The notes below the pieces were generated by a model. It searched no databases. It was not told the origin of the DNA and saw only the letters and a list, made by a program, of their open reading frames with translations. From Melioribacter roseus P3M-2 (GTDB lineage: Bacteria; Bacteroidota; Ignavibacteria; Ignavibacteriales; Melioribacteraceae), in NCBI RefSeq assembly GCF_000279145.1, contig NC_018178.1, positions 248,001 through 312,000 of the forward strand: a stretch of DNA of 64,000 bases, given 5' to 3'. A program made the translations under genes and the position numbers. Positions 14,230 through 25,707 of this stretch are shown here, piece by piece. Every line of letters starts with the position of its first letter. Position 1 is the first letter of the stretch.

Positions 14230-15813
14230 TTATTTTTCGATAAATTGTTTGTTCTTATAGTACTGAAACAGCTTATAGTTGATACTGTCGCTTAAAGCTT
14301 TAAAACTCGCCTCGATAATATTTGTAGACACTCCCACAGTTCCCCAGGCATCCTTACCGTCGCTCGATTCAATCATAACCCTTACTTTCGCTGCGGTGCC
14401 TTCTTTTTCGTCAAGTACTCTCACCTTATAATCTACCAATTTAATGTCGGCGACTTCCGGATAAAATCTGGTAAGAGCTTTGCGAAGCGCTTTATCGAGA
14501 GCATTAACTGGACCGTCGCCGTCCGACGCCGTATGTTCGATTTCGCCGTTTACTTCAATTTTGAGTACCGCTTCGGCATTCGAATGTCCTTCTTCGTCAT
14601 AAAATACATTTACTTTGGAATCAAGTACTTTGAAGAACGGCGAAAATTCATCGGTTTCTGCTCTGAGCAACAATTCGAAAGAAGCTTCCGCGCCGTCGAA
14701 CTGATATCCGTTGTATTCGAGCGATTTTATACGGTTAACAATTTTTTTACTCAGCTCTTTATTGTCTCCTATATCCACTCCGACCTCCTTGGCTTTATAA
14801 CGGACGTTGCTTTGTCCCGACAAATCCGATACCAGCACACGTTGTTTATTACCAACCAATTCCGGCTCGATATGCTCATACATTCTGCTTTCTTTCATAA
14901 CCGCGCTTACATGAACGCCGCCTTTGTGGGCAAAGGCGGATTTGCCCGTAAATGCAGCCCTAGTATTCGGATGGAGATTCATAATTTCGTAGACGTAATT
15001 CGATACCGAAGTCAGACTGGCGAGATTGGATTTTTGATTTGTTTCATAATTCATTTTTAAGATTAAATTCGGAATAATACTGCACAGATTAGCGTTTCCG
15101 CAACGTTCGCCCAATCCGTTGACGGTTCCCTGCACATGACGCGCTCCCGCTCTCACAGCCGCCAGCGAATTTGCAACGGCAAGTTCGGAATCGTTGTGAG
15201 TATGAATGCCGATTTTAACGTCGAATTTTTCCTTAACGGTTTTGGTAATTTCATAGACTTCTTCAGGCAAAGCGCCGCCGTTTGTATCGCATAACACCAG
15301 CGTATCGGCGCCTCCTTTTACCGCCGCCTCAAGCATCTTGAGCGCGAACTCCGGATCGTCTTTAAAACCGTCAAAAAAGTGCTCTGCGTCGAAGATAACC
15401 CTTCTGCCGTGCGATTTCAAATATTTAACCGATTTATAGATAAGTTCCTCGTTTTCGGCGTCCGTCAATCCGAGACCCTTTTGCGAATGAAGTTTCCAGG
15501 TTTTTCCAAAGATCGTAATAATCGGCGTTTCCGAATTAATGAGAGTATTCAAATTGTAATCGGATTCAACGTCTTTAACTGATCTGGCGGTGGAACCGAA
15601 CGCGCATAGTTTGGCGTGTTGAAGATCAAGTTCTTTTGCTTTTTTGAAGAATTCCTCGTCTTTTGGATTACTTCCCGGCCAACCGCCTTCAATAATATCG
15701 ATTCCGAATTCATCGAGTTTTTTTGCAATCAACAACTTGTCCTGAACCGAAAGGTTAACTCCTTCGCCCTGGGTTCCGTCGCGTAATGTAGTATCAAAGA
15801 TTTCTACTAACAT
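14230..15813 (-). CDS. cimA: (R)-citramalate synthase
   Basis: Condenses pyruvate and acetyl-CoA to citramalate, the first step of the threonine-independent route to isoleucine. The DRE-TIM metallolyase barrel begins EIFDTTLRDGTQGEGVNLS, and EGGWPGSNPKDEEFF is a CimA-type signature rather than LeuA. Histidine ligands are in GIHTHNDSELAVAN, and GTVNGLGERCGNANL follows. The C-terminal third is the allosteric LeuA-dimer domain. At 527 residues it fits the long bacterial CimA group. It is last in the ilv-leu operon, where its product is processed by LeuCD and LeuB. Confidence 0.93.
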   Translation of the reverse strand: MLVEIFDTTLRDGTQGEGVNLSVQDKLLIAKKLDEFGIDIIEGGWPGSNPKDEEFFKKAKELDLQHAKLCAFGSTARSVKDVESDYNLNTLINSETPIITIFGKTWKLHSQKGLGLTDAENEELIYKSVKYLKSHGRRVIFDAEHFFDGFKDDPEFALKMLEAAVKGGADTLVLCDTNGGALPEEVYEITKTVKEKFDVKIGIHTHNDSELAVANSLAAVRAGARHVQGTVNGLGERCGNANLCSIIPNLILKMNYETNQKSNLASLTSVSNYVYEIMNLHPNTRAAFTGKSAFAHKGGVHVSAVMKESRMYEHIEPELVGNKQRVLVSDLSGQSNVRYKAKEVGVDIGDNKELSKKIVNRIKSLEYNGYQFDGAEASFELLLRAETDEFSPFFKVLDSKVNVFYDEEGHSNAEAVLKIEVNGEIEHTASDGDGPVNALDKALRKALTRFYPEVADIKLVDYKVRVLDEKEGTAAKVRVMIESSDGKDAWGTVGVSTNIIEASFKALSDSINYKLFQYYKNKQFIEK

Positions 15814-15830
15814 AATTTCTTCCTCTAATT

Positions 15831-16388
15831 TTAAATCATATTATTTTGACGGGCATATTCGAAAATATTTCCCGCTTCGATGATCGGCAATATATCTCCC
15901 AGCGGTCTGAGCTGGTAGGTTTCGTTTTTAGTTAGATTCCGCAATGTATTCCCGTTAAGATCCAATTCGAGCTCGTCTCCAGTTTCGATTTTATCGTTAA
16001 GTTTTTGGGATGTTTCATACGGCACAACAAAGCCGCCGTCGACACAGTTGCGATAAAATATTCTGGCATACGATTCGGCGATTATTGCTTTGGCTCCGGC
16101 AACCTGAAGCGCAAAAGGAGCGTGCTCGCGGGACGAACCGCATCCGAAGTTCGAACCGCCGATAATAATCTGATATTTTGTTTGATATTGCCCTTCATCA
16201 ACAAAAGGAATGCCGCCTTTGGGTAAACCGGATTGACTCAAAGGCACGCCGGAAAGCGCAAATCTTCCGTAATTTTTAGATTCTTCCGGATCGCTTAAAC
16301 TGTAGACCAGATGCTCGGCGGGAATAATCTGGTCGGTGTCTATATTGTCTCCAAGCACAAATGCTCTGCCTTTAATTATTTTTTCCAT
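15831..16388 (-). CDS. leuD: 3-isopropylmalate dehydratase small subunit
   Basis: Small subunit of isopropylmalate (and citramalate) isomerase. ATG at 16388 gives MEKIIKGRAFVLGDNIDTDQ and 185 residues. The frame is open further upstream, but only as an out-of-frame read of leuC. The swivel-domain signature GSNFGCGSSREHAPFAL is complete. It starts 20 bp after leuC and is needed with it for activity. Confidence 0.97.
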   Translation of the reverse strand: MEKIIKGRAFVLGDNIDTDQIIPAEHLVYSLSDPEESKNYGRFALSGVPLSQSGLPKGGIPFVDEGQYQTKYQIIIGGSNFGCGSSREHAPFALQVAGAKAIIAESYARIFYRNCVDGGFVVPYETSQKLNDKIETGDELELDLNGNTLRNLTKNETYQLRPLGDILPIIEAGNIFEYARQNNMI

Positions 16389-16408
16389 TTTTATTCTCTG
16401 TAATTTTT

Positions 16409-17704
16409 TTATAAAAATTCTCTCGGATCTGTAATTACGCCAGTCACTGCAGAAGCCGCAACGGTTAAAGGCGACGCAAGAAAGACTTCGGATTTTTTGC
16501 TGCCCATTCTGCCGGGGAAATTTCGGTTGGTAGTCGAAATAACTACTTCGCCGTCTGCAGCTCTTCCCACAGTGTCGGCCGGTCCGCCCAAACAAGCAGC
16601 GCACGACGACTGTGCAATAACACAGCCGGCTTTTTCAAAAATTTCTTTCAACGTTATTCCGTTGATTGTTTCCACTTCGAGTTGCTGCGCCACATAAGTA
16701 CTGCCAGGCACTATAAAAGTCGGGGTCTTAACTTCATTGCCGAAAATAATTTTTGCAGCGTTGTAAAAATCCGTTAACTTACCGCCGGTACACGAGCCGA
16801 TATAACATTTGGTCAATTTTCTGCCCGCTACATTTCTGACGGTATCCCTGTTATCCGGACTATGCGGCTTGGCGACCAACGGTTCAATTTCATTCACATT
16901 ATAACGATAGACCTCCCTGTATTTTGCGTCGGGGTCGCTTTCGAAAATTTCGTACGGCTTGTCAGTTCTTTCTCTAACGTATTTTTCAGTTACTTCGTCG
17001 GCTTTAATAATGCCGTTCATGGCGCCGGCTTCGATTGCCATATTCGTCAGGGTCATTCTTTCGTCCATTTGCATTGAAAAGATAGCTTCGCCGTCGAATT
17101 CCAAAGCCCTGTAGGTGCCGCCGTCGGTTGTAATGTCTCCGAGTATCATCAAAATCAAATCTTTTGCAGTCAAATATTCCGGCATATTGCCTTCGAATAT
17201 AAATTTGAGCGATTCGGGCACTTTTTCCCAAATTTTTCCCGTTCCGAGAATAAATGCGGCGTCTGTATTTCCAACGCCCGTCGAAAACATGCCGAAGGCG
17301 CCGGATGTACATGTGTGCGAATCTGTTCCGAACAATACGGTTCCGGGCAGATTATAACCTTCTTCCGCAAGCGCAATATGGCATACTCCTTTGTAACGGT
17401 CGGTGCCTACGTCGTAATAATTCGGCACGTCATATTCGCTTGCAAATTCTCTCAGGATATTAACGTTGCGATTAGCCTGAGGATTTTTGGTAAATATATA
17501 ATGGTCGGGAAAGATGACCAGTTTTTCTTTGTCCCAAATTTTCGCTTTATCCCCGAATTCTCTTTTCCAGATTTCGATCGTCGGCGGACCGCATACATCG
17601 TGAGTCATCAAAACATCCACATTGAGCCATATACTTTCGCCGGGTTCAACTCTTTTTTTGCCGGCGGATTTAGCCATAATTTTTTCGGTTATAGTCATGC
17701 CCAT
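16409..17704 (-). CDS. leuC: 3-isopropylmalate dehydratase large subunit
   Basis: Aconitase-family catalytic subunit, 431 residues. The [4Fe-4S] ligands are visible in CYIGSCTGGKLTD and SSCAACLGG, with the active-site block GTDSHTCTSGAFGMFSTGVG near residue 125. Starts MGMTITEKIMAKSAGKK with TAAGGAA upstream. The length and sequence fit the shorter HacA/LeuC2-type subunit rather than the roughly 465-residue proteobacterial LeuC, which suits dual use of isopropylmalate and citramalate. That dual role is an inference from gene context. Confidence 0.95.
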   Translation of the reverse strand: MGMTITEKIMAKSAGKKRVEPGESIWLNVDVLMTHDVCGPPTIEIWKREFGDKAKIWDKEKLVIFPDHYIFTKNPQANRNVNILREFASEYDVPNYYDVGTDRYKGVCHIALAEEGYNLPGTVLFGTDSHTCTSGAFGMFSTGVGNTDAAFILGTGKIWEKVPESLKFIFEGNMPEYLTAKDLILMILGDITTDGGTYRALEFDGEAIFSMQMDERMTLTNMAIEAGAMNGIIKADEVTEKYVRERTDKPYEIFESDPDAKYREVYRYNVNEIEPLVAKPHSPDNRDTVRNVAGRKLTKCYIGSCTGGKLTDFYNAAKIIFGNEVKTPTFIVPGSTYVAQQLEVETINGITLKEIFEKAGCVIAQSSCAACLGGPADTVGRAADGEVVISTTNRNFPGRMGSKKSEVFLASPLTVAASAVTGVITDPREFL

Positions 17705-17718
17705 AATTTATTTCCTTA

Positions 17719-19299
17719 TTAAATTACTTCCGAAATTGATTCGTTATTTTTAGGTGAAGTTTGATTTAAATATTTTTCTTTTTGATTCAACGCGCTTAAA
17801 TAAGCTTTTGCGCTCGCTTCAATTATATCGGTCGAAATGCCTCTTCCCATAAAGGATTTATTGCCGCTGCGGATTCTGATAATAACTTCGCCCATAGCTT
17901 CGCGTCCCGACGTAACCGATCGCACCTGATAGGATTCCACTTCGGAATTTATTGAAAGAGCGCGTTCGATTGCATTAAAAACAGCGTCTACCGGACCGTC
18001 GCCGGTTGCCGATTCCGAATAAATTTCGCCATTATAATTAATTTTCACTACCGCATTCGGAATAAGATTGGTACCGGCATTAACCTGAATATACTCAAGT
18101 TCATAGATACCGTTATCTTTTTGTATTTCGTCCCCCATCAGCATTCTGAGATCGTCGTCAAAAACTTCTTTCTTTTTATCAGCCAACTCGGTAAAAGCTT
18201 TGTAGACATTCTGGAGTTCTTCGTCGGTCACTTTATAGCCAAGTTCCTGAAGCCGTACTTTAAGACCGTGCCTTCCGGAATGTCTACCCAGTACAATGTT
18301 ATTTTTCGGAATACCGACGCTTTCGGGGGTCATAATTTCGTATGTTTCGCGGCTTTTAAGAACTCCGTCCTGGTGAATTCCTGACTCGTGCGCGAATGCG
18401 TTTTCTCCCACTATCGCTTTATTGCGCTGCACAAGCAGCCCGGTAAAGGCTGAAACCATTTTGCTTGTATTGTAAATCTCTTTTGTATTGATATCGGTAT
18501 AAAAATCGAGCAGGTCTTTCCTTACGTTAAGAGCCATGACGAACTCTTCCAGAGAAGCATTTCCCGCTCTTTCTCCAATTCCGTTTATGGTGCATTCAAC
18601 CTGTCGCGCTCCGCTTTGAACCGCCGCAATCGAATTGGCTACCGCAAGCCCCAAATCGTTATGACAGTGCACGCTTATGATTGCTTTTTCAATATTTTTA
18701 ACCCTTTTTTTCAATTCGGCTATTTTAGCGGCAAATTCGAACGGGAGCGTATAACCGGTTGTATCGGGAATATTAACCGTAGTGGCTCCGGCTTCGATTG
18801 CAGCCTCTATTACTTCGGCGAGGTAACCGATATCGGTTCTGCCCGCGTCTTCGGCGGAAAATTCAACGTCGTCCGTAAAAGTTTTTGCGTAAGCCACTGC
18901 GTCGTACGACATTTTAATTATTGTCCGCCGTTTTTCTTCCAGAGTTTTTCCGTAACGCTCGTGTCCGAACTTTCCCAGAATGTGATAGTCGGAAGTGCTC
19001 GAAAAAGTATGAATTCTTTTTCGCGGAGCGGGCGCCAAAGCTTCGGCTGCCGCTTTAATGTCTTTTTCGTTTGCACGCGACAAAGCAGCAATAATGCAAT
19101 CGACTTCTTCGGCGATCCGTTTTACAGCTTCGAATTGCGCCGGCGATGAAATCGGAAATCCCGCTTCGATTACGTCAACATTTAGTTTAGCGAGTTGATG
19201 CGCTATTTCGACTTTCTCGTGAACGTTCAATGACGCGCCGGGCGATTGTTCGCCGTCTCTCAATGTTGTATCGAAAATCAGTATTTTATTGTCTTTCAT
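17719..19299 (-). CDS. leuA: 2-isopropylmalate synthase
   Basis: Commits 2-ketoisovalerate and acetyl-CoA to leucine synthesis. ATG at 19299 follows GGAGA and gives MKDNKILIFDTTLRDGEQSP and 526 residues. Extending the frame upstream would overlap leuB. The catalytic barrel has SVHCHNDLGLAVANSIAAV and GAGNASLEE-like (GERAGNASLEEFVMA) motifs. The C-terminal allosteric domain includes GDGPVDAVFNAIERAL, indicating probable leucine feedback. Confidence 0.97.
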   Translation of the reverse strand: MKDNKILIFDTTLRDGEQSPGASLNVHEKVEIAHQLAKLNVDVIEAGFPISSPAQFEAVKRIAEEVDCIIAALSRANEKDIKAAAEALAPAPRKRIHTFSSTSDYHILGKFGHERYGKTLEEKRRTIIKMSYDAVAYAKTFTDDVEFSAEDAGRTDIGYLAEVIEAAIEAGATTVNIPDTTGYTLPFEFAAKIAELKKRVKNIEKAIISVHCHNDLGLAVANSIAAVQSGARQVECTINGIGERAGNASLEEFVMALNVRKDLLDFYTDINTKEIYNTSKMVSAFTGLLVQRNKAIVGENAFAHESGIHQDGVLKSRETYEIMTPESVGIPKNNIVLGRHSGRHGLKVRLQELGYKVTDEELQNVYKAFTELADKKKEVFDDDLRMLMGDEIQKDNGIYELEYIQVNAGTNLIPNAVVKINYNGEIYSESATGDGPVDAVFNAIERALSINSEVESYQVRSVTSGREAMGEVIIRIRSGNKSFMGRGISTDIIEASAKAYLSALNQKEKYLNQTSPKNNESISEVI

Positions 19300-19324
19300 T
19301 TTTAGTTCTCCGCTAATATCTTCC

Positions 19325-20419
19325 TCATAATGTAAAAACATTGATAGCCTGAGTAGCCACAATCTTTTCAAATTCTTCTATAATTAAATTTGTCATCTCT
19401 TCAGTAGTAACGAGTTTATCGCCTTCTTTAAAGATGTCCTTAGTTCTGTATCCTTTCGACAAAACGTTTTCGATCGAATTTTCGATAATTTCGGAAGCTT
19501 TGTCCATTTGGAAAGAATATTTAAGCATCATGGCAGCCGACGAAATTGCGGCAATCGGATTAGCAATGCCTTTTCCGGCAATGTCCGGAGCGCTGCCGTG
19601 AACGGGTTCGTAGAGCGCATATTTGGTTCCGAGGCTGGCCGAAGGCAACATACCCAAACTTCCGGTTATCATTGCCGCTATATCGCTCAGTATATCCCCG
19701 AACAGATTCGAAGTCAAAATGACGTCGAATTGTTTCGGGTCTCTTACGATTTGCATAGCCGCATTGTCCACATACATATGGTTCAATTGAACGTCCGGAT
19801 AGTCCTTGCGGACTTCCACGACTACTTTTCTCCAGAATTGCGAGACCTCCAGCACGTTTGCTTTATCGACGGATGCGACTCTTTTATTCCGCTGTCTGGC
19901 AAATTCGAATGCTTTGCGAGCAATTCTTTCTACTTCTTCTTTCGTGTAAATCATTGTATTAAAGCCCTTCTCGTCGTCATAACCGCGAGGTTCGCCGAAA
20001 TAGATGCCTCCGGTAAGTTCCCTAAGAATCAGGACATCGGTTCCTTTAAGAACGTCGGCTTTAAGCGAAGAATTTTCGAGCATCGAATTATAGACACGCG
20101 CCGGTCTCAAATTCGCAAACAGACCCAGAGCTTTTCTCAATTTGAGCAGAGCGGCTTCGGGTTTAAGGTGATGCTCGAGATTTTCCCAGTCGGGTCCGCC
20201 TACGGCTCCAAGGAAAACCACGTCGGAGCTGTAACATACGTCGAGAGTTTCATCGGTCAATGGGGTTTTGAATTTATCGTAAGAAGACCCGCCGATTAAC
20301 GCTGTTTTGAATTCAAATTCGGTATTAAATTTTTCTCCGGCAATTTTCAATACTTTTACGGCTGCGTTTACGACTTCCGGGCCGATGCCGTCGCCCGGCA
20401 GCAATGCTATCCGATACAT
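19325..20419 (-). CDS. leuB: 3-isopropylmalate dehydrogenase
   Basis: NAD-dependent oxidative decarboxylase of the leucine pathway, which also acts on 3-methylmalate in the citramalate route. 364 residues: MYRIALLPGDGIGPEVVNAA at the start, arginine-rich LFANLRPARVY, ELTGGIYFGEPRG, the metal site NLFGDILSDIAAMITGSLG and the NAD-specifying block EPVHGSAPDIAGKGIANP. It sits between ilvC and leuA with short gaps. Confidence 0.97.
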   Translation of the reverse strand: MYRIALLPGDGIGPEVVNAAVKVLKIAGEKFNTEFEFKTALIGGSSYDKFKTPLTDETLDVCYSSDVVFLGAVGGPDWENLEHHLKPEAALLKLRKALGLFANLRPARVYNSMLENSSLKADVLKGTDVLILRELTGGIYFGEPRGYDDEKGFNTMIYTKEEVERIARKAFEFARQRNKRVASVDKANVLEVSQFWRKVVVEVRKDYPDVQLNHMYVDNAAMQIVRDPKQFDVILTSNLFGDILSDIAAMITGSLGMLPSASLGTKYALYEPVHGSAPDIAGKGIANPIAAISSAAMMLKYSFQMDKASEIIENSIENVLSKGYRTKDIFKEGDKLVTTEEMTNLIIEEFEKIVATQAINVFTL

Positions 20420-20430
20420 AATTTCCCCTT

Positions 20431-21423
20431 TTAATTTTTTTTGAGCCAGCTCATCATACTGCGTAATTTGGCTCCTATTTTTTCAATTGGATGTTCCTGG
20501 TTTTCTTTTCTCAATTTGTTTAACGTCGGTTGACCATTTTTATTTTCTTCAATCCATTCCTCGGCAAATTTACCGCTTTGAATTTCGCTCAGAATTTCTT
20601 TCATAACTTTTTTAGTATCGCTGTTAATAACTCTTGTGCCTCTGGTCATCCCGCCGTATTCGGCAGTATCGCTCACCGAATAATTCATGCGCGTAAGACC
20701 GCCTTCGTAGTAGAGGTCGACAATCAATTTAAGTTCGTGCATACATTCGAAATAAGCCAGTTCTGCAGGATAACCCGCTTCAACTAAAGTTTCGAAGCCC
20801 GCTTTGATCAGCTCGGCAGATCCGCCGCACAGAACGGCTTGTTCACCGAACAGGTCTGTTTCGGTTTCGTCTTTGAAAGTAGTTTCGATAACGCCTGCGC
20901 GAGTACCTCCTATTCCTTTTGCCCAGGTTAAGGCTTTATCGCGCGCCTGTCCGGAAAAGTCCTGATGAATAGCAATCAAACAGGGAGTGCCGCTGCCTTC
21001 CTGAAAAGTACGGCGGACCAGGTGTCCCGGCCCTTTCGGAGCGATCATTATAACATCGATATTTTCCGGAGGGACAATCTGTTTGTAATGAATATTAAAG
21101 CCGTGGGCAAAAGCCAGAGTTTTGCCTTCGCTTAAAAAAGGTTTGATTTGGCTTTCATAAACTTCTTTTTGATTCTGATCCGGCAATAAAATCATAATAA
21201 CGTCAGCCCAATTCGCGGCTTCGTCAACGGTAAATACTTTGAGACCGGCTTCTTCGGCTTCTTTCCATCTGGATGATGATTTTCTCAAACCGACACCCAC
21301 ATCCATTCCGCTGTCTTTCAGATTGAGAGCATGAGCGTGTCCCTGACTGCCGTATCCCATTACTGCAATATTTTTCCCTTTTAGTATGTCCAGATTTGCA
21401 TCCTGGTCGTAATAGACTTTCAT
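20431..21423 (-). CDS. ilvC: Ketol-acid reductoisomerase
   Basis: Class I (short) KARI of 330 residues: isomerises and reduces acetolactate or acetohydroxybutyrate. The Rossmann glycine motif is [17 protein letters not shown]. The phosphate-binding loop LRKSSSRW carries serines and arginine, as in NADPH-using enzymes. The metal-binding [12 protein letters not shown] and C-terminal knotted helices are intact. Its start overlaps the ilvN stop by 4 bp (ATGA arrangement), implying coupled translation. Confidence 0.98.
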
Positions 21424-21959
21424 TTTTTATCTCCGTTAATTTTTTTATGGTCGTCCTCTTTTTCCTTGGGTAGTTTTCTAATTTGTTCACCGCGTCGTAA
21501 AACGACCGTGCCCGAACGCGCAATCTCTTTAATTCCAAAGGGTTCGAGAACGTTAATGGCAGCGTCGATTTTATCAGGCGGGCCTGTAATTTCAAGCATA
21601 ATTGTTCTGTTGTTAATATCGACGACATTTCCCCTGAAAATTTCACAAATATCGATAATTTCAGAACGTGTGCCTTTTTGATAGTAAACGGTAATCAGCA
21701 TCAATTCGCGCTGCACTTTCGGTTGATGCGTCATGTCGATAATTTTTATCGTGTCTATCAATCTGTTCAATTGCTTTACAATCTGCTCTATAACTTTGTC
21801 TTCGCCTTCCGTAACGATAGTCATTCTCGATACAGTAGGATCTTCGGTTTCGCCGATGGAAATCGAATGAATATTGTATCCTTTAGCGCTGAACATTGTA
21901 ACGACTCTGTTGAAAGCGCCGAATTTGTTTTCTACGAGCGCTGATATTATATGCATCAT
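21420..21959 (-). CDS. ilvN: Acetolactate synthase small (regulatory) subunit
   Basis: Regulatory subunit of acetohydroxyacid synthase, 179 residues, with an N-terminal ACT domain ([21 protein letters not shown]) that binds valine in characterised homologues and a C-terminal domain from about residue 85. It overlaps ilvC by 4 bp and follows ilvB after 1 bp, so large and small subunits are probably made in balance. The C-terminus is lysine-rich and slightly longer than usual. Confidence 0.96.
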
Positions 21960-21960
21960 T

Positions 21961-23703
21961 TTAGATCATCTCCTTTGGATCTAATCTACGGATAATCATA
22001 TCGCTAATTGAAGCTCCCGCGGGCACAATGGGAAAGACCATGTCTTCCTTGGCTACTTTGAATTCAACCATAACGGGACCGTCATTATGGTCGAGCATTT
22101 CCCTGAGCAGAGACTCGACATTATGAGGACTATCGGTCGAATACGCCTTTACACCGAAAGCTTCAGCTACTTTTACAAAATCTGGATTACTGTCCGAGAG
22201 ATCGGTAAAACTGAATTTTTCGGCATGGAAAAGCTCCTGCCATTGCCGCACCATTCCGAGGAAACTGTTATTAAGGACAATAATTTTAATCGGCAGTTTG
22301 TAATAAACTGCGGTTGCCAATTCCTGAATATTCATCTGGAAGCCGCCGTCTCCGTTAATTGAAATTACGGGGCGGTCTTTTACACCGAAAGCGACTCCGA
22401 TGGCGGCGGGAAGAGCAAAACCCATAGTTCCCAAACCGCCGCTGGTTATATGAGAGCGAGGATGATTAAACTTATAATATTGCGCCGTCCACATTTGATT
22501 TTGACCTACGTCAGTAACTACTACGGCTTCTCCTTTGGTAAGTTCGGATAATTTTTCAATTACAAATTGAGCTCTCAATCTGCCGTCGGACATATCGTAT
22601 TCGAGCGGACACTCTTTTTTCCATTTATTAATTTGTTCCCACCATTCGTCGAGGTCGGGCTTACGCGTAATTTCCGAGGCAAGTTCAGCCATTACATGTT
22701 TAACGTCGCCAACTATCGGCAAATCGACTACGATGTTTTTGTCTATGCAAGTCGGGTCGATGTCGACGTGAATTTTGTATGCATTGCGGGCAAACGTTTC
22801 TACTTTTCCAGTCACCCGGTCGTCGAATCGAGCGCCCAGCGAAATGAGTAAATCGCAGTTATTGACCGCTTGATTTGCCCAGTAAGTGCCGTGCATTCCG
22901 AGCATACCGAGCGATTGAGGGTCGGTGCCCGGGAATGCGCCCAAGCCCTGTAATGTCATTGTAACGGGCAAATTATTCTCTTTGGCAAGGAGATACAATT
23001 CCCTGTTGCCGCCGGACATAATAACGCCTCCGCCTACATAAAGCAATGGTCTTTTTGCTTTTTGAATCATCATAGCGGCTTTTTTAATTTGATTTTGATG
23101 ACCGAATACTTTCGGCTTGTAGCCTTTAAGGTCTATTTTATCGGGGTAATGAAATTCTGTTATGTTGTTGATTACATTTTTAGGTAAATCGACAACCACC
23201 GGTCCGGGTCTGCCGGTCGAAGCGATATAAAACGCCTGTCTGATAGTAGGGGCTAATTCCGAAATATCTCTTACAAGAAAATTGTGTTTTGTTATCGGTC
23301 TGGTAATACCGCAAATATCGGCTTCCTGAAAAGCGTCGTTGCCGATTAAATGCGTGGGCACCTGTCCGGTAAAAACAACTATCGGCACAGAATCCATATA
23401 AGCGTCCGTAATACCCGTAACCGTATTAGTGGCGCCGGGTCCTGAGGTTACGAGAACGACTCCGACTTTGCCCGTTGCTTTTGCGTACCCTTCGGCCATG
23501 TGAGTTGCGCCTTGTTCGTGTCGCACCAGTATGTGTTTCAAAAAGTCGATATCATAGAGTCTTTCGTAGATAGGCAAAACCGCGCCGCCGGGATATCCAA
23601 AGACGTATTCTACGCCTTCCCTTTTAAGGCATTCAAAGAAAATATCAGCCCCGGACATTTTATTTTTTTGGTATTCATAATTACCCCTTTCATTGATTTT
23701 CAT
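21961..23703 (-). CDS. ilvB: Acetolactate synthase large (catalytic) subunit
   Basis: Thiamine-diphosphate enzyme making acetolactate or acetohydroxybutyrate. It has [19 protein letters not shown] near the N-terminus, the FAD/central domain, and the ThDP motif [18 protein letters not shown] about 430 residues in. The start is uncertain: ATG at 23703 overlaps the ilvD stop by 14 bp and gives 580 residues. ATG at 23658 ([15 protein letters not shown]) is closer to family N-termini, but no Shine-Dalgarno lies at the right spacing for either. Confidence 0.97.
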
Positions 23704-25378
23704 TTATACTTAAAATTGCGCCAGTATTGGCAGAAGTAACCATTTTGGAATAACGCGCCAAATAACCTTTTCTGATTTTCGGCTCGAACGGAGGAAGTTC
23801 AGCCAGTCTCCTTTCGATTTCTTCCTGGCTAAGCTCCACGTTCAGCTTGTAATTAGGGATATCAATCGAAATAATATCGCCGTTTCTCAATGCAGCGATA
23901 GGACCTCTTACGGCGGCTTCCGGCGAAATATGACCGATACAAGCTCCTCTGGTGCCTCCCGAGAATCTTCCGTCGGTTATCAAAGCGACCTTATCTCCCA
24001 AGCCCATTCCCATTATTTCGCTTGTGGGAGCCAGCATTTCGGGCATTCCCGGTCCGCCTTTAGGTCCTTCGTACCTGATAACAACCACATCCCCCGCTTT
24101 AATTTTTCCGTTTCTTATTCCTTCCAGAGCTTCGTCCTGCGAGTCGAAAATAACCGCCGGTCCGCGGTGGACTAACATTTTTGGGTCTACGGCGCCGGTT
24201 TTTACGACCGAACCGTTAGGAGCCAGGTTACCGAACAATACAGCCAATCCGCCGGTCTTGCTAAACGGGTTGTCGACGGTTCTAATTACATTTTCGTCTT
24301 TAATTTCTGCGCCCGCTATATTTTCGCCGAGAGTTTTTCCCGTAACAGTAGGCGAATCGAGATAGAGTAATCCGTCTATTTTCGAAATTTCATTCAGTAT
24401 TGCCGATATTCCTCCGGCTCTGTCCACATCTTCCATATGCACGCTTTTTGTCGCAGGCGAAACTTTACAAATATAAGGCGCTCTTTGAGCCAGTTTATTT
24501 AATTCATCCAGTTCAAAATCGATTTCGGCTTCGTTGGCGATTGCCAAAGTATGCAAGACGGTATTTGTGCTTCCGCCCATTGCCATGTCCAATGCAAAAG
24601 CATTAACGATCGATTTCTTTGTAATAATATCTCTTGGTTTCAAATCTTTATTTATCAGGTCGATAATTTTAGAGGCAGCCTGTTTTGCAAGTTCATGTCT
24701 TTTGGGATCGACTGCGAGAATCGAACCGTTGCCGGGCAAAGCAATTCCAAGCGCTTCCATGAGGCAGTTCATTGAATTGGCGGTAAACATGCCGCTGCAA
24801 GAGCCGCAAGTGGGGCATGCAAAATTTTCCAATTCTTTCAATTTGTCGTCGTTAATTTCACCGGTCGAATATTTTCCGACTCCTTCAAAAACCGAAATCA
24901 AATCGACCACGTCGCCCGAGGGAGTGTATCCCGCTTTCATTGGTCCGCCGGAAATAAAAATAGTGGGGATATTGAGTCTAACCGCAGCCATCAGCATGCC
25001 GGGCACAATTTTATCGCAATTCGGGATGCAGATCAAACCGTCGAGGCGATGAGCTTCGGCTACCGTTTCTACGCTGTCTGCAATTAATTCTCTGCTGGCA
25101 AGCGAATACCGCATTCCGATATGTCCCATTGCAATGCCGTCGTCGACTCCGATAGTATTGAATTCAAACGGAACGCCGCCTGCTTTGCGCACTTCCTCTT
25201 TAACTATTCGTCCAAACTCTTGAAGGTGCACATGTCCGGGAATTAAATCGATATAAGAATTGCACACGCCGATGAACGGCTTGTTAAAATCCTCGTCGGA
25301 TTTAATTACGCCTGTGGCTTTCAATAAACTTCTGTGCGGCGCTTTATCGAAACCTTTTTTGATTAAATCGGATCTCAT
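23690..25378 (-). CDS. ilvD: Dihydroxy-acid dehydratase
   Basis: Fe-S dehydratase shared by the valine and isoleucine pathways, 562 residues. Cluster-binding cysteines are visible in [25 protein letters not shown] and [19 protein letters not shown]. The catalytic C-terminal block is [20 protein letters not shown]. It is first in the nine-gene operon; ATG at 25378 follows GAGG by 7 nt. The 117 bp between the leader-peptide stop and this start hold alternative hairpins, so expression is probably controlled there. Confidence 0.97.
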
Positions 25379-25421
25379 CTCAATCCTCTAACTTTTAATA
25401 AAATATAACTTTAGATATACC

Positions 25422-25555
25422 TTTAGGGTTTTAGTCAATCCCTAAATTATCTTAAAAATTATATTATGTTATTGTTAGGGATTGACTAAATATTATTACC
25501 CTAGTATAATCACTAGGCTAATAATATTGATAATAATTAGATTAATAATCCCTAG
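25422..25555 (-). promoter_or_regulatory. Attenuator-like alternative hairpins upstream of ilvD
   Basis: Several mutually exclusive pairings are visible on the minus-strand transcript. (a) CCTAGT/ACTAGG, a 6-bp stem with 6-nt loop at 25500-25517, at the end of the leader ORF. (b) A perfect 16-bp inverted repeat: TTTAGTCAATCCCTAA (minus sense, 25475-25490) with TTAGGGATTGACTAAA (25430-25445). (c) TTTAGGG/CCCTAAA, 7 bp, 25422-25428 with 25440-25446, sharing the distal arm of b. (d) TAGGGATT in the leader ORF (25547-25554) can pair with the proximal arm of b. No T-run follows b or c, so a classical intrinsic terminator is not evident. The dyad could also be a protein operator. Confidence 0.6.
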
Positions 25556-25666
25556 AAGGTTAGTATCTAAAGATGAGTTAAAAGAAACACTAAGGCTGTC
25601 GATAGCGTGTGCTTGTGGCCCGCCGGATATTTGATTGGTTGTAATATGTTTATTATGTTCAGCCAT
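25496..25666 (-). CDS. Probable branched-chain amino acid leader peptide
   Basis: 56-codon ORF starting ATG at 25666, about 6 nt from the predicted transcript start. It begins MAEHNKHITTNQISGGPQAH and ends IINLIIINIISLVIILG, with 10 Ile, 3 Leu and 1 Val among the last 17 residues. It lies directly upstream of the ilv-leu-cimA operon. I see no Shine-Dalgarno, only GAG 2 nt before ATG. No known protein family is recognised. The composition, place and downstream hairpins fit a ribosome-stalling leader like IlvL or LeuL, but it has a longer N-terminal part than those peptides. The frame is also open further upstream to 25759, but that region precedes the promoter. Confidence 0.72.
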   Translation of the reverse strand: MAEHNKHITTNQISGGPQAHAIDSLSVSFNSSLDTNLLGIINLIIINIISLVIILG

Positions 25667-25678
25667 AACTCGAATGCA

Positions 25679-25707
25679 ATTATAAGTTATAATTGATTCG
25701 ATGTCAA
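25679..25707 (-). promoter_or_regulatory. Consensus sigma-70 promoter of the ilv-leu-cimA operon
   Basis: On the minus strand, TTGACA (25702-25707), exactly 17 bp, then TATAAT (25679-25684): a perfect match to the sigma-70 consensus. The expected start of transcription is near 25671-25673, only about 6 nt before the leader ATG. The remaining gap to hom (25708-25836) holds a possible plus-strand -10, TATAAT at 25729-25734, with no good -35. Confidence 0.8.

Follow-up and report, generated by a model that had tools for sequence, protein, structure and literature searches.

The leu, ilv, trp and his leaders of Proteobacteria are the classical leader-peptide systems. The leader that we describe here, ahead of an ilv-leu-cimA operon of Melioribacter roseus P3M-2, shares with them the regulatory codons and the alternatives of the 1:2, 2:3 and 3:4 kind, but it has no 3:4 intrinsic terminator and its strongest stem is the 2:3-like one. 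Its rare CUA leucine codons parallel those of leuL. In erm translational attenuation, a ribosome stalled on the leader ORF alters the structure near the downstream ribosome binding site (RBS); erm attenuation responds to an antibiotic and not to an amino acid, and its RNA is different from the present leader.

A survey of 2010 stated that, until the Firmicutes case which it reported itself, leader-peptide systems had been demonstrated in Proteobacteria and Actinobacteria only (PMC2965389). The ilvB-II, ilvB-OMG and ilvB RNA motifs are known from Corynebacterium and others (PMC10272879). These motifs have in common with the present leader an upstream ORF (uORF) rich in branched-chain amino acids before ilv genes, lengths in multiples of three, and translation that selects between stems (PMC10272879). 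The uORF of ilvB-II is usually 15-17 codons long, and the P2 of this motif, with its U-run, serves as an intrinsic terminator (PMC10272879). Neither a U stretch after P2 nor a uORF of that length is found here. The uORF of the present leader has about 44-59 codons, its start is structured (P0), its stem P1 adjoins the RBS, there is no terminator, and the leader lies mostly before ilvD, in other phyla and without an Rfam match. In the actinobacterial LEU element before leuA, a Leu codon run pairs with the Shine-Dalgarno (SD) sequence, and a pseudoknot has been proposed (PMC1262725). The present leader shares with it a leader ORF, a base stem joining the codon-run and SD regions, alternative folds and the lack of a terminator (PMC1262725). 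Unlike in the LEU element, however, the codons just before the Ile run pair with a segment just upstream of the SD, and the base stem flanks the codon run and the SD rather than including them. In plan, the LEU element is the nearest of these systems, the likeness being one of layout.

In a literature search that covered mainly openly accessible papers, no description for Ignavibacteria was found. The leader would extend leader-ORF control by amino acids to Ignavibacteria and, by the labels of MAGs, to Calditrichota and KSB1; a divergent form occurs in Marinimicrobia. Because it lacks a terminator, on which many searches depend, terminator-based scans would have overlooked it.

Organization of the leader and the operon

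The window is the whole stretch of DNA analysed, 64,000 nucleotides of contig NC_018178.1. On its minus strand, a promoter is followed by a 56-codon ORF, a perfect 16-bp inverted repeat and an operon of nine genes in the order ilvD-B-N-C-leuB-A-C-D-cimA by Pfam assignment (Table 1). An earlier reading made from the sequence only had named a consensus promoter and a nine-gene ilv-leu-cimA operon; the promoter was confirmed on the minus strand with its spacer of 17, and Pfam agrees with the operon, the ninth gene encoding a cimA-like HMGL/LeuA_dimer protein. The same reading had placed the element at 25422-25707. The element is real, but its supported extent, 25707-25378, is larger and takes in everything between the promoter and the start of ilvD; the RNA leader ahead of the operon is about 290 bases long. 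Nearly all relatives have TTGACA and a TATAAT-like box just before the leader ATG. The transcript is predicted to start at about 25672, which would place the leader ATG a few bases from the 5′ end.

Table 1 Features of the leader and operon in the window
Feature	Position	Strand	Evidence
Promoter, -35 TTGACA 25707-25702, -10 TATAAT 25684-25679, spacer 17	25679..25707	(-)	sequence; relatives
Leader ORF, 56 codons + TAA (ATG 25666, stop TAA 25498-25496)	25496..25666	(-)	frame, stop, codon patterns
Regulatory Ile/Leu/Val codons 40-55 of leader ORF	25549-25502	(-)	sequence
P0 stem, GGCTG 25664-25660 with CAGCC 25598-25594	25594..25664	(-)	partner swap
P1 base stem, 5′ arm: CTTTAGATA 25572-25564, ACCTT 25560-25556, TAGGG 25554-25550	25409..25572	(-)	partner swap
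P1 base stem, 3′ arm: CCCTAAAGGT 25428-25419, TATCTAAAG 25417-25409		(-)	partner swap
P2 (d:e) hairpin, perfect 16 bp: TTTAGTCAATCCCTAA 25490-25475 with TTAGGGATTGACTAAA 25445-25430	25430..25490	(-)	partner swap, covariation
b:d alternative, TAGGGATT 25554-25547 with AATCCCTA 25483-25476	25476..25554	(-)	z = -5.8
e:f alternative hairpin, TTTAGGG 25446-25440 with CCCTAAA 25428-25422	25422..25446	(-)	z = -3.3
g:i alternative hairpin by RBS, TCTAA 25415-25411 with TTAGA 25391-25387	25387..25415	(-)	z = -3.4
Shine-Dalgarno AGAGG of ilvD	25385..25389	(-)	sequence
ilvD, first structural gene (ATG 25378)	23690..25378	(-)	Pfam PF00920/PF24877
ilvB, ilvN, ilvC, leuB, leuA, leuC, leuD, cimA-like: operon remainder	14230..23703	(-)	Pfam

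The leader ORF encodes a peptide of 56 aa (MAEHNKHITTNQISGGPQAHAIDSLSVSFNSSLDTNLLGIINLIIINIISLVIILG) with the C-terminal end IINLIIINIISLVIILG. This Ile/Leu/Val-rich end had been pointed out before, and it recurs in all 35 comparable loci. Among 50 leaders, Ile, Leu and Val account for 75% of the codon run when it is read in frame 0, and for 38% and 8% in the two other frames; stop codons number 0 in frame 0 against 123 and 47. The run directly follows codons 32-39 (the P1 5′ arm) and is rich in rare codons: CTA makes up 56% of Leu codons in leader runs and 7% in neighbouring genes, while for ATT among Ile codons the values are 87% and 53%. These frame, stop-codon and rare-codon patterns indicate that the leader ORF is translated. 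Segment b was located partly via the peptide motif; a distance from b to the stop in multiples of three is therefore not independent evidence. The frame comparison and the codon bias are independent. The leader thus has what leader-peptide attenuation generally involves, a short translated ORF rich in codons for the amino acids of its operon.

Conservation and distribution

The leader was present in all 35 loci of this ilvD type within the order of the host, divergent families included. These loci share one plan, in which a promoter and a near-leaderless start precede an ORF ending approximately in S-L-D-x-L-L-G-I, followed by the Ile/Leu/Val run. On the 3′ side of the run, GTCAATCCC and GGGGTTGACC enclose a loop poor in G, and a segment similar to TATCTGAAG and then the SD follow. 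Across genera, both the stems and the end of the ORF are kept and covary, which is the conservation that the sequence-only reading had proposed as its check; their recurrence in all 35 comparable loci is more than chance. A covariance model of the 3′ part of the leader found matches in 34 of 294 genomes of the class, from 21 genera. Six genomes, in which an ilvD of a distant type located elsewhere was the only one detected, have a leader copy before ilvB, and one further genome has a copy before leuB-leuA-leuCD. In a sister family the plan is the same with different sequences, P0 having -11.8 to -16.9 kcal/mol and d:e -27 to -33 kcal/mol. Matches were found as well in MAGs labelled Calditrichota and KSB1, and MAGs labelled Marinimicrobia have an Ile/Leu-rich leader of a divergent form. 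As judged from these sequences, the leader is conserved over many genera and probably several phyla.

RNA helices

Helices were evaluated by a partner-swap test, in which each arm was tried against the partner from the same leader and against those from other leaders (40-41 non-redundant leaders), and by a stricter control in which the partner was swapped with that of the nearest relative. Control pairings gave z values between -2.5 and +2.0. The pairings b:e, a:i, c:g, c:e, X:g and Y:g were null in the partner swap.

P0 lies immediately at the start codon of the leader ORF (z = -9.8, 41 leaders; p = 0.004 in the control with the nearest relative). It has 5 bp in this genus and 7-10 bp in most relatives, and it was also found in the second family type. 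P1, formed by a+b joined to f+g, joins codons 32-39 to a stretch immediately before the ilvD SD (z = -10.2, mean -17.9 versus -12.3 kcal/mol, 40 leaders; nearest-relative control p = 0.008), and a:g alone gave z = -7.1. P2, with its G-poor, A/T-rich loop, gave z = -9.4; two-sided changes were present at 8 of 13 alignment pairs, and 0 of 500 shuffles attained the observed scores on pairs, cells or covariation. The unconstrained MFE fold of the window leader contains both P1 and P2. Among the alternatives, b:d excludes P2 and the upper part of P1, e:f excludes P2 and P1, and g:i overlaps the SD. Since the controls reach -2.5, e:f, b:f (z = -3.6) and g:i, which is barely beyond that worst control, are weakly supported. 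Under the nearest-relative control P2, b:d, e:f and g:i were not significant, and P0 and P1 alone remained significant.

The sequence-only reading had described the 16-bp repeat, which is P2 and whose arms covary, and the competing segment TAGGGATT, and both hold; P0 and P1 had not been reported as such. It had also regarded the long N-terminal extension of the ORF as unusual, an extension that the conserved stem P0 at the ORF start accounts for. In the window, arm d (CAATCCCTAAC, 25484-25474) can in addition pair with the ilvD SD region (GTTAGAGGATTG, 25392-25381) at -15.9 kcal/mol. As a general feature this pairing was rejected (z = -2.0 across relatives).

Ribosome position and proposed mechanism

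With an assumed footprint size, a ribosome whose A-site is at the first Ile/Leu codon covers about 85% of the P1 5′ arm, and one at the last Ile/Leu codon or at the stop covers 0%. In 47 leaders, the median distance between the 3′ end of P1 and the start codon that follows is 20 nt (IQR 17-23.5). From this coverage and this tight spacing, we infer that P1 reports the position of the ribosome and that its closure by the RBS is the repressed state. On comparative and geometric grounds, the leader thus has mutually exclusive folds set by ribosome position. Folding of 35 leaders with the ribosome footprint blocked gave no consistent change in SD accessibility by ribosome position.

The best reading of these data is a variant of ribosome-mediated attenuation with a translational or Rho-dependent output. 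As a whole, the explanation that we favour, with a probability of roughly 0.6, is that the leader senses the supply of branched-chain aminoacyl-tRNA through ribosome position and is repressed when P1 is closed. The sensing part is very probable, and the direction and level of the output are proposed tentatively. Under starvation, the ribosome would halt at the first Leu/Ile codons and cover the P1 5′ arm, the RBS-proximal base stem could not close, and the operon would be expressed. When charged tRNA is plentiful, the ribosome would run to the stop codon and leave, P1 and P2 (which caps P1) would fold into a closed rod against the RBS of ilvD, and expression would fall through hindered initiation and/or ensuing polarity (Rho). 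Transcription of its 3′ arm would allow P0 to form, and P0 would then restrict later rounds of initiation on the leader, leaving the decision to the pioneer ribosome. In this model b:d and e:f would serve as alternative folds. Counting against the mechanism are the length of P0 in this genus, just 5 bp, the SD accessibility that did not follow ribosome position in folding, the opposite sign suggested by g:i, and the lack of significance of P2, b:d, e:f and g:i under the nearest-relative control. The P1 stem would be a directly testable link from ribosome position to the RBS.

Alternative explanations

No conserved U-run follows any stem in the 35 leaders, and 27 of the 35 lack a run of at least four T after the e:f hairpin. 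The missing T-run had been noticed in the window and is general among these leaders. Therefore, the leader is not a classical IlvL/LeuL attenuator. Neither an intrinsic terminator nor a match to an Rfam leader family, both of which mark the classical type, was found: Rfam gave no match at the gathering score, and chance hits to microRNA families were the only ones at E up to 1. The idea of leader-peptide attenuation itself is borne out by the ORF end, the covarying stems and the CTA enrichment, but not in its classical form with an intrinsic terminator.

A U-run after e:f or P1 is not a general feature, and a Rho-dependent output must therefore be taken seriously as a rival. The classical logic of 1:2, 2:3 and 3:4 would then be carried by b:d, d:e and e:f, with Rho-dependent instead of intrinsic termination. 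A ribosome at the stop codon, which lies about 5 nt upstream of d, would cover d; e:f would form, the d-e linker, visibly G-poor, would be exposed as a loading site for Rho, and RNA polymerase would stop short of ilvD. A ribosome stalled at the Ile codons would cover b, so that d:e would form and transcription would continue. The absence of a U-run and the existence of three mutually exclusive pairings with some support are consistent with this logic. However, d:e greatly exceeds b:d and e:f in strength (mean duplex energy -19 versus about -9 kcal/mol), whereas classical attenuators show the opposite order. This logic also gives no role to P1 or to its fixed distance from the RBS, and Rho sites are not demonstrable from sequence. 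We consider such a switch unlikely.

In a translational switch of opposite sign, g would be an anti-SD (g:i). The formation of P1 would remove g and expose the SD (ON), and frequent translation of the leader would open P1 and let g close the SD (OFF). The swap value of g:i (z = -3.4) points in this direction, although one control pairing attains z = -2.5 and g:i is missing from many leaders. The long spacers between g and the SD often contain an extra hairpin by eye. In folding, blocking g opened the SD with an effect that was modest against a shuffled-g control, opening of the SD costing 3.3 kcal/mol with native g and 2.2 kcal/mol with shuffled g (21/28, p = 9e-4). These folding models suggest that g may act as a partial anti-SD in many leaders, which would give an output of the opposite sign. 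Nevertheless, a stall at the first Ile codons would then open P1 and shut the SD, whereas a biosynthetic operon calls for the opposite response, and we regard this switch as improbable.

A further reading, in which P1 is the stem of an intrinsic terminator and the U-rich tract beyond g provides the U-run, is very improbable. Within 12 nt after the a:g helix, a T run of at least four is present in 14 of the 35 leaders and one of at least five in 8, but the remaining leaders have no such T run and the U-run is not conserved; the P1 base is A+U-rich and its 5′ arm lies about 140 nt upstream. A DNA operator, with the perfect dyad of the window bound by a repressor, or chance repeats beside an untranslated ORF, is scarcely credible. 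The loop varies, the two arms change together into quite dissimilar sequences without losing their complementarity, and the spacing differs by tens of bases; moreover, the controls of the partner swap are null, and both the reading frame and the codon bias are under constraint. The dyad operator had been left as an option in the sequence-only reading.

Taking up again the sensing of ribosome position by P1, one may tentatively see in these leaders a class of the FCB group, a view that is possible but on balance doubtful. Its members would be long leader genes that are structured throughout, with the stems of the RNA overlying the coding sequence along the entire ORF. Here P0 would restrict reading to the pioneer ribosome, P1 would report its halt, the translation of the operon would be set without a terminator, and a displaced ilvD start could become a second, tandem leader.

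Tandem and divergent leaders

The six genomes without this ilvD at the locus (L083, L084, L085, L086, L087 and L088) keep its SD and start, followed by an open ORF of 45-67 codons that lies about 10-240 nt downstream of the leader element. By eye, the N-terminus of this ORF resembles that of IlvD in five of the six (VRSDSKYTGYYQTSKRS), the ORFs with such an N-terminus having 56-67 codons. In at least two copies, L083 and L084, the ORF ends in an Ile/Leu run (NIIILNIISRLIILSI and NINIIIILSIIILSI), and in L083 the run of this second ORF is followed by an inverted repeat (GCATCTAAG/CTTAGATGC). These sequences suggest that the displaced ilvD start became a second, tandem leader.

Four loci from Marinimicrobia-labelled MAGs (L107, L109, L111 and L141) have, ahead of ilvD, a leader that ends in LLILVIIGLxV(L/Q)xx; its stop is followed by a GAC(G/A)GCGGAGA segment, and its stems are unlike those of the main type. 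At L106, from a MAG labelled KSB1, P2 is separated from ilvD by an inserted 24-bp inverted repeat made of GGTGAGTTGTGAGT-like units, about 88-205 nt past the leader stop. L091 (G024:C37) contains at about 893-978 a second leader copy without the Ile/Leu run, apparently decayed or repurposed. It precedes an ORF of 1518 aa that resembles the large subunit of glutamate synthase. Finally, upstream of a distant (45% identical) ilvD in G003, locus L024 encodes two tandem short leader peptides, MKTIKNILVLIISIIIIQ and MKNFSLINIILLIIVIIIPGYWE, each followed by a hairpin with a T-run, that is, classical attenuators in the same bacterial family.
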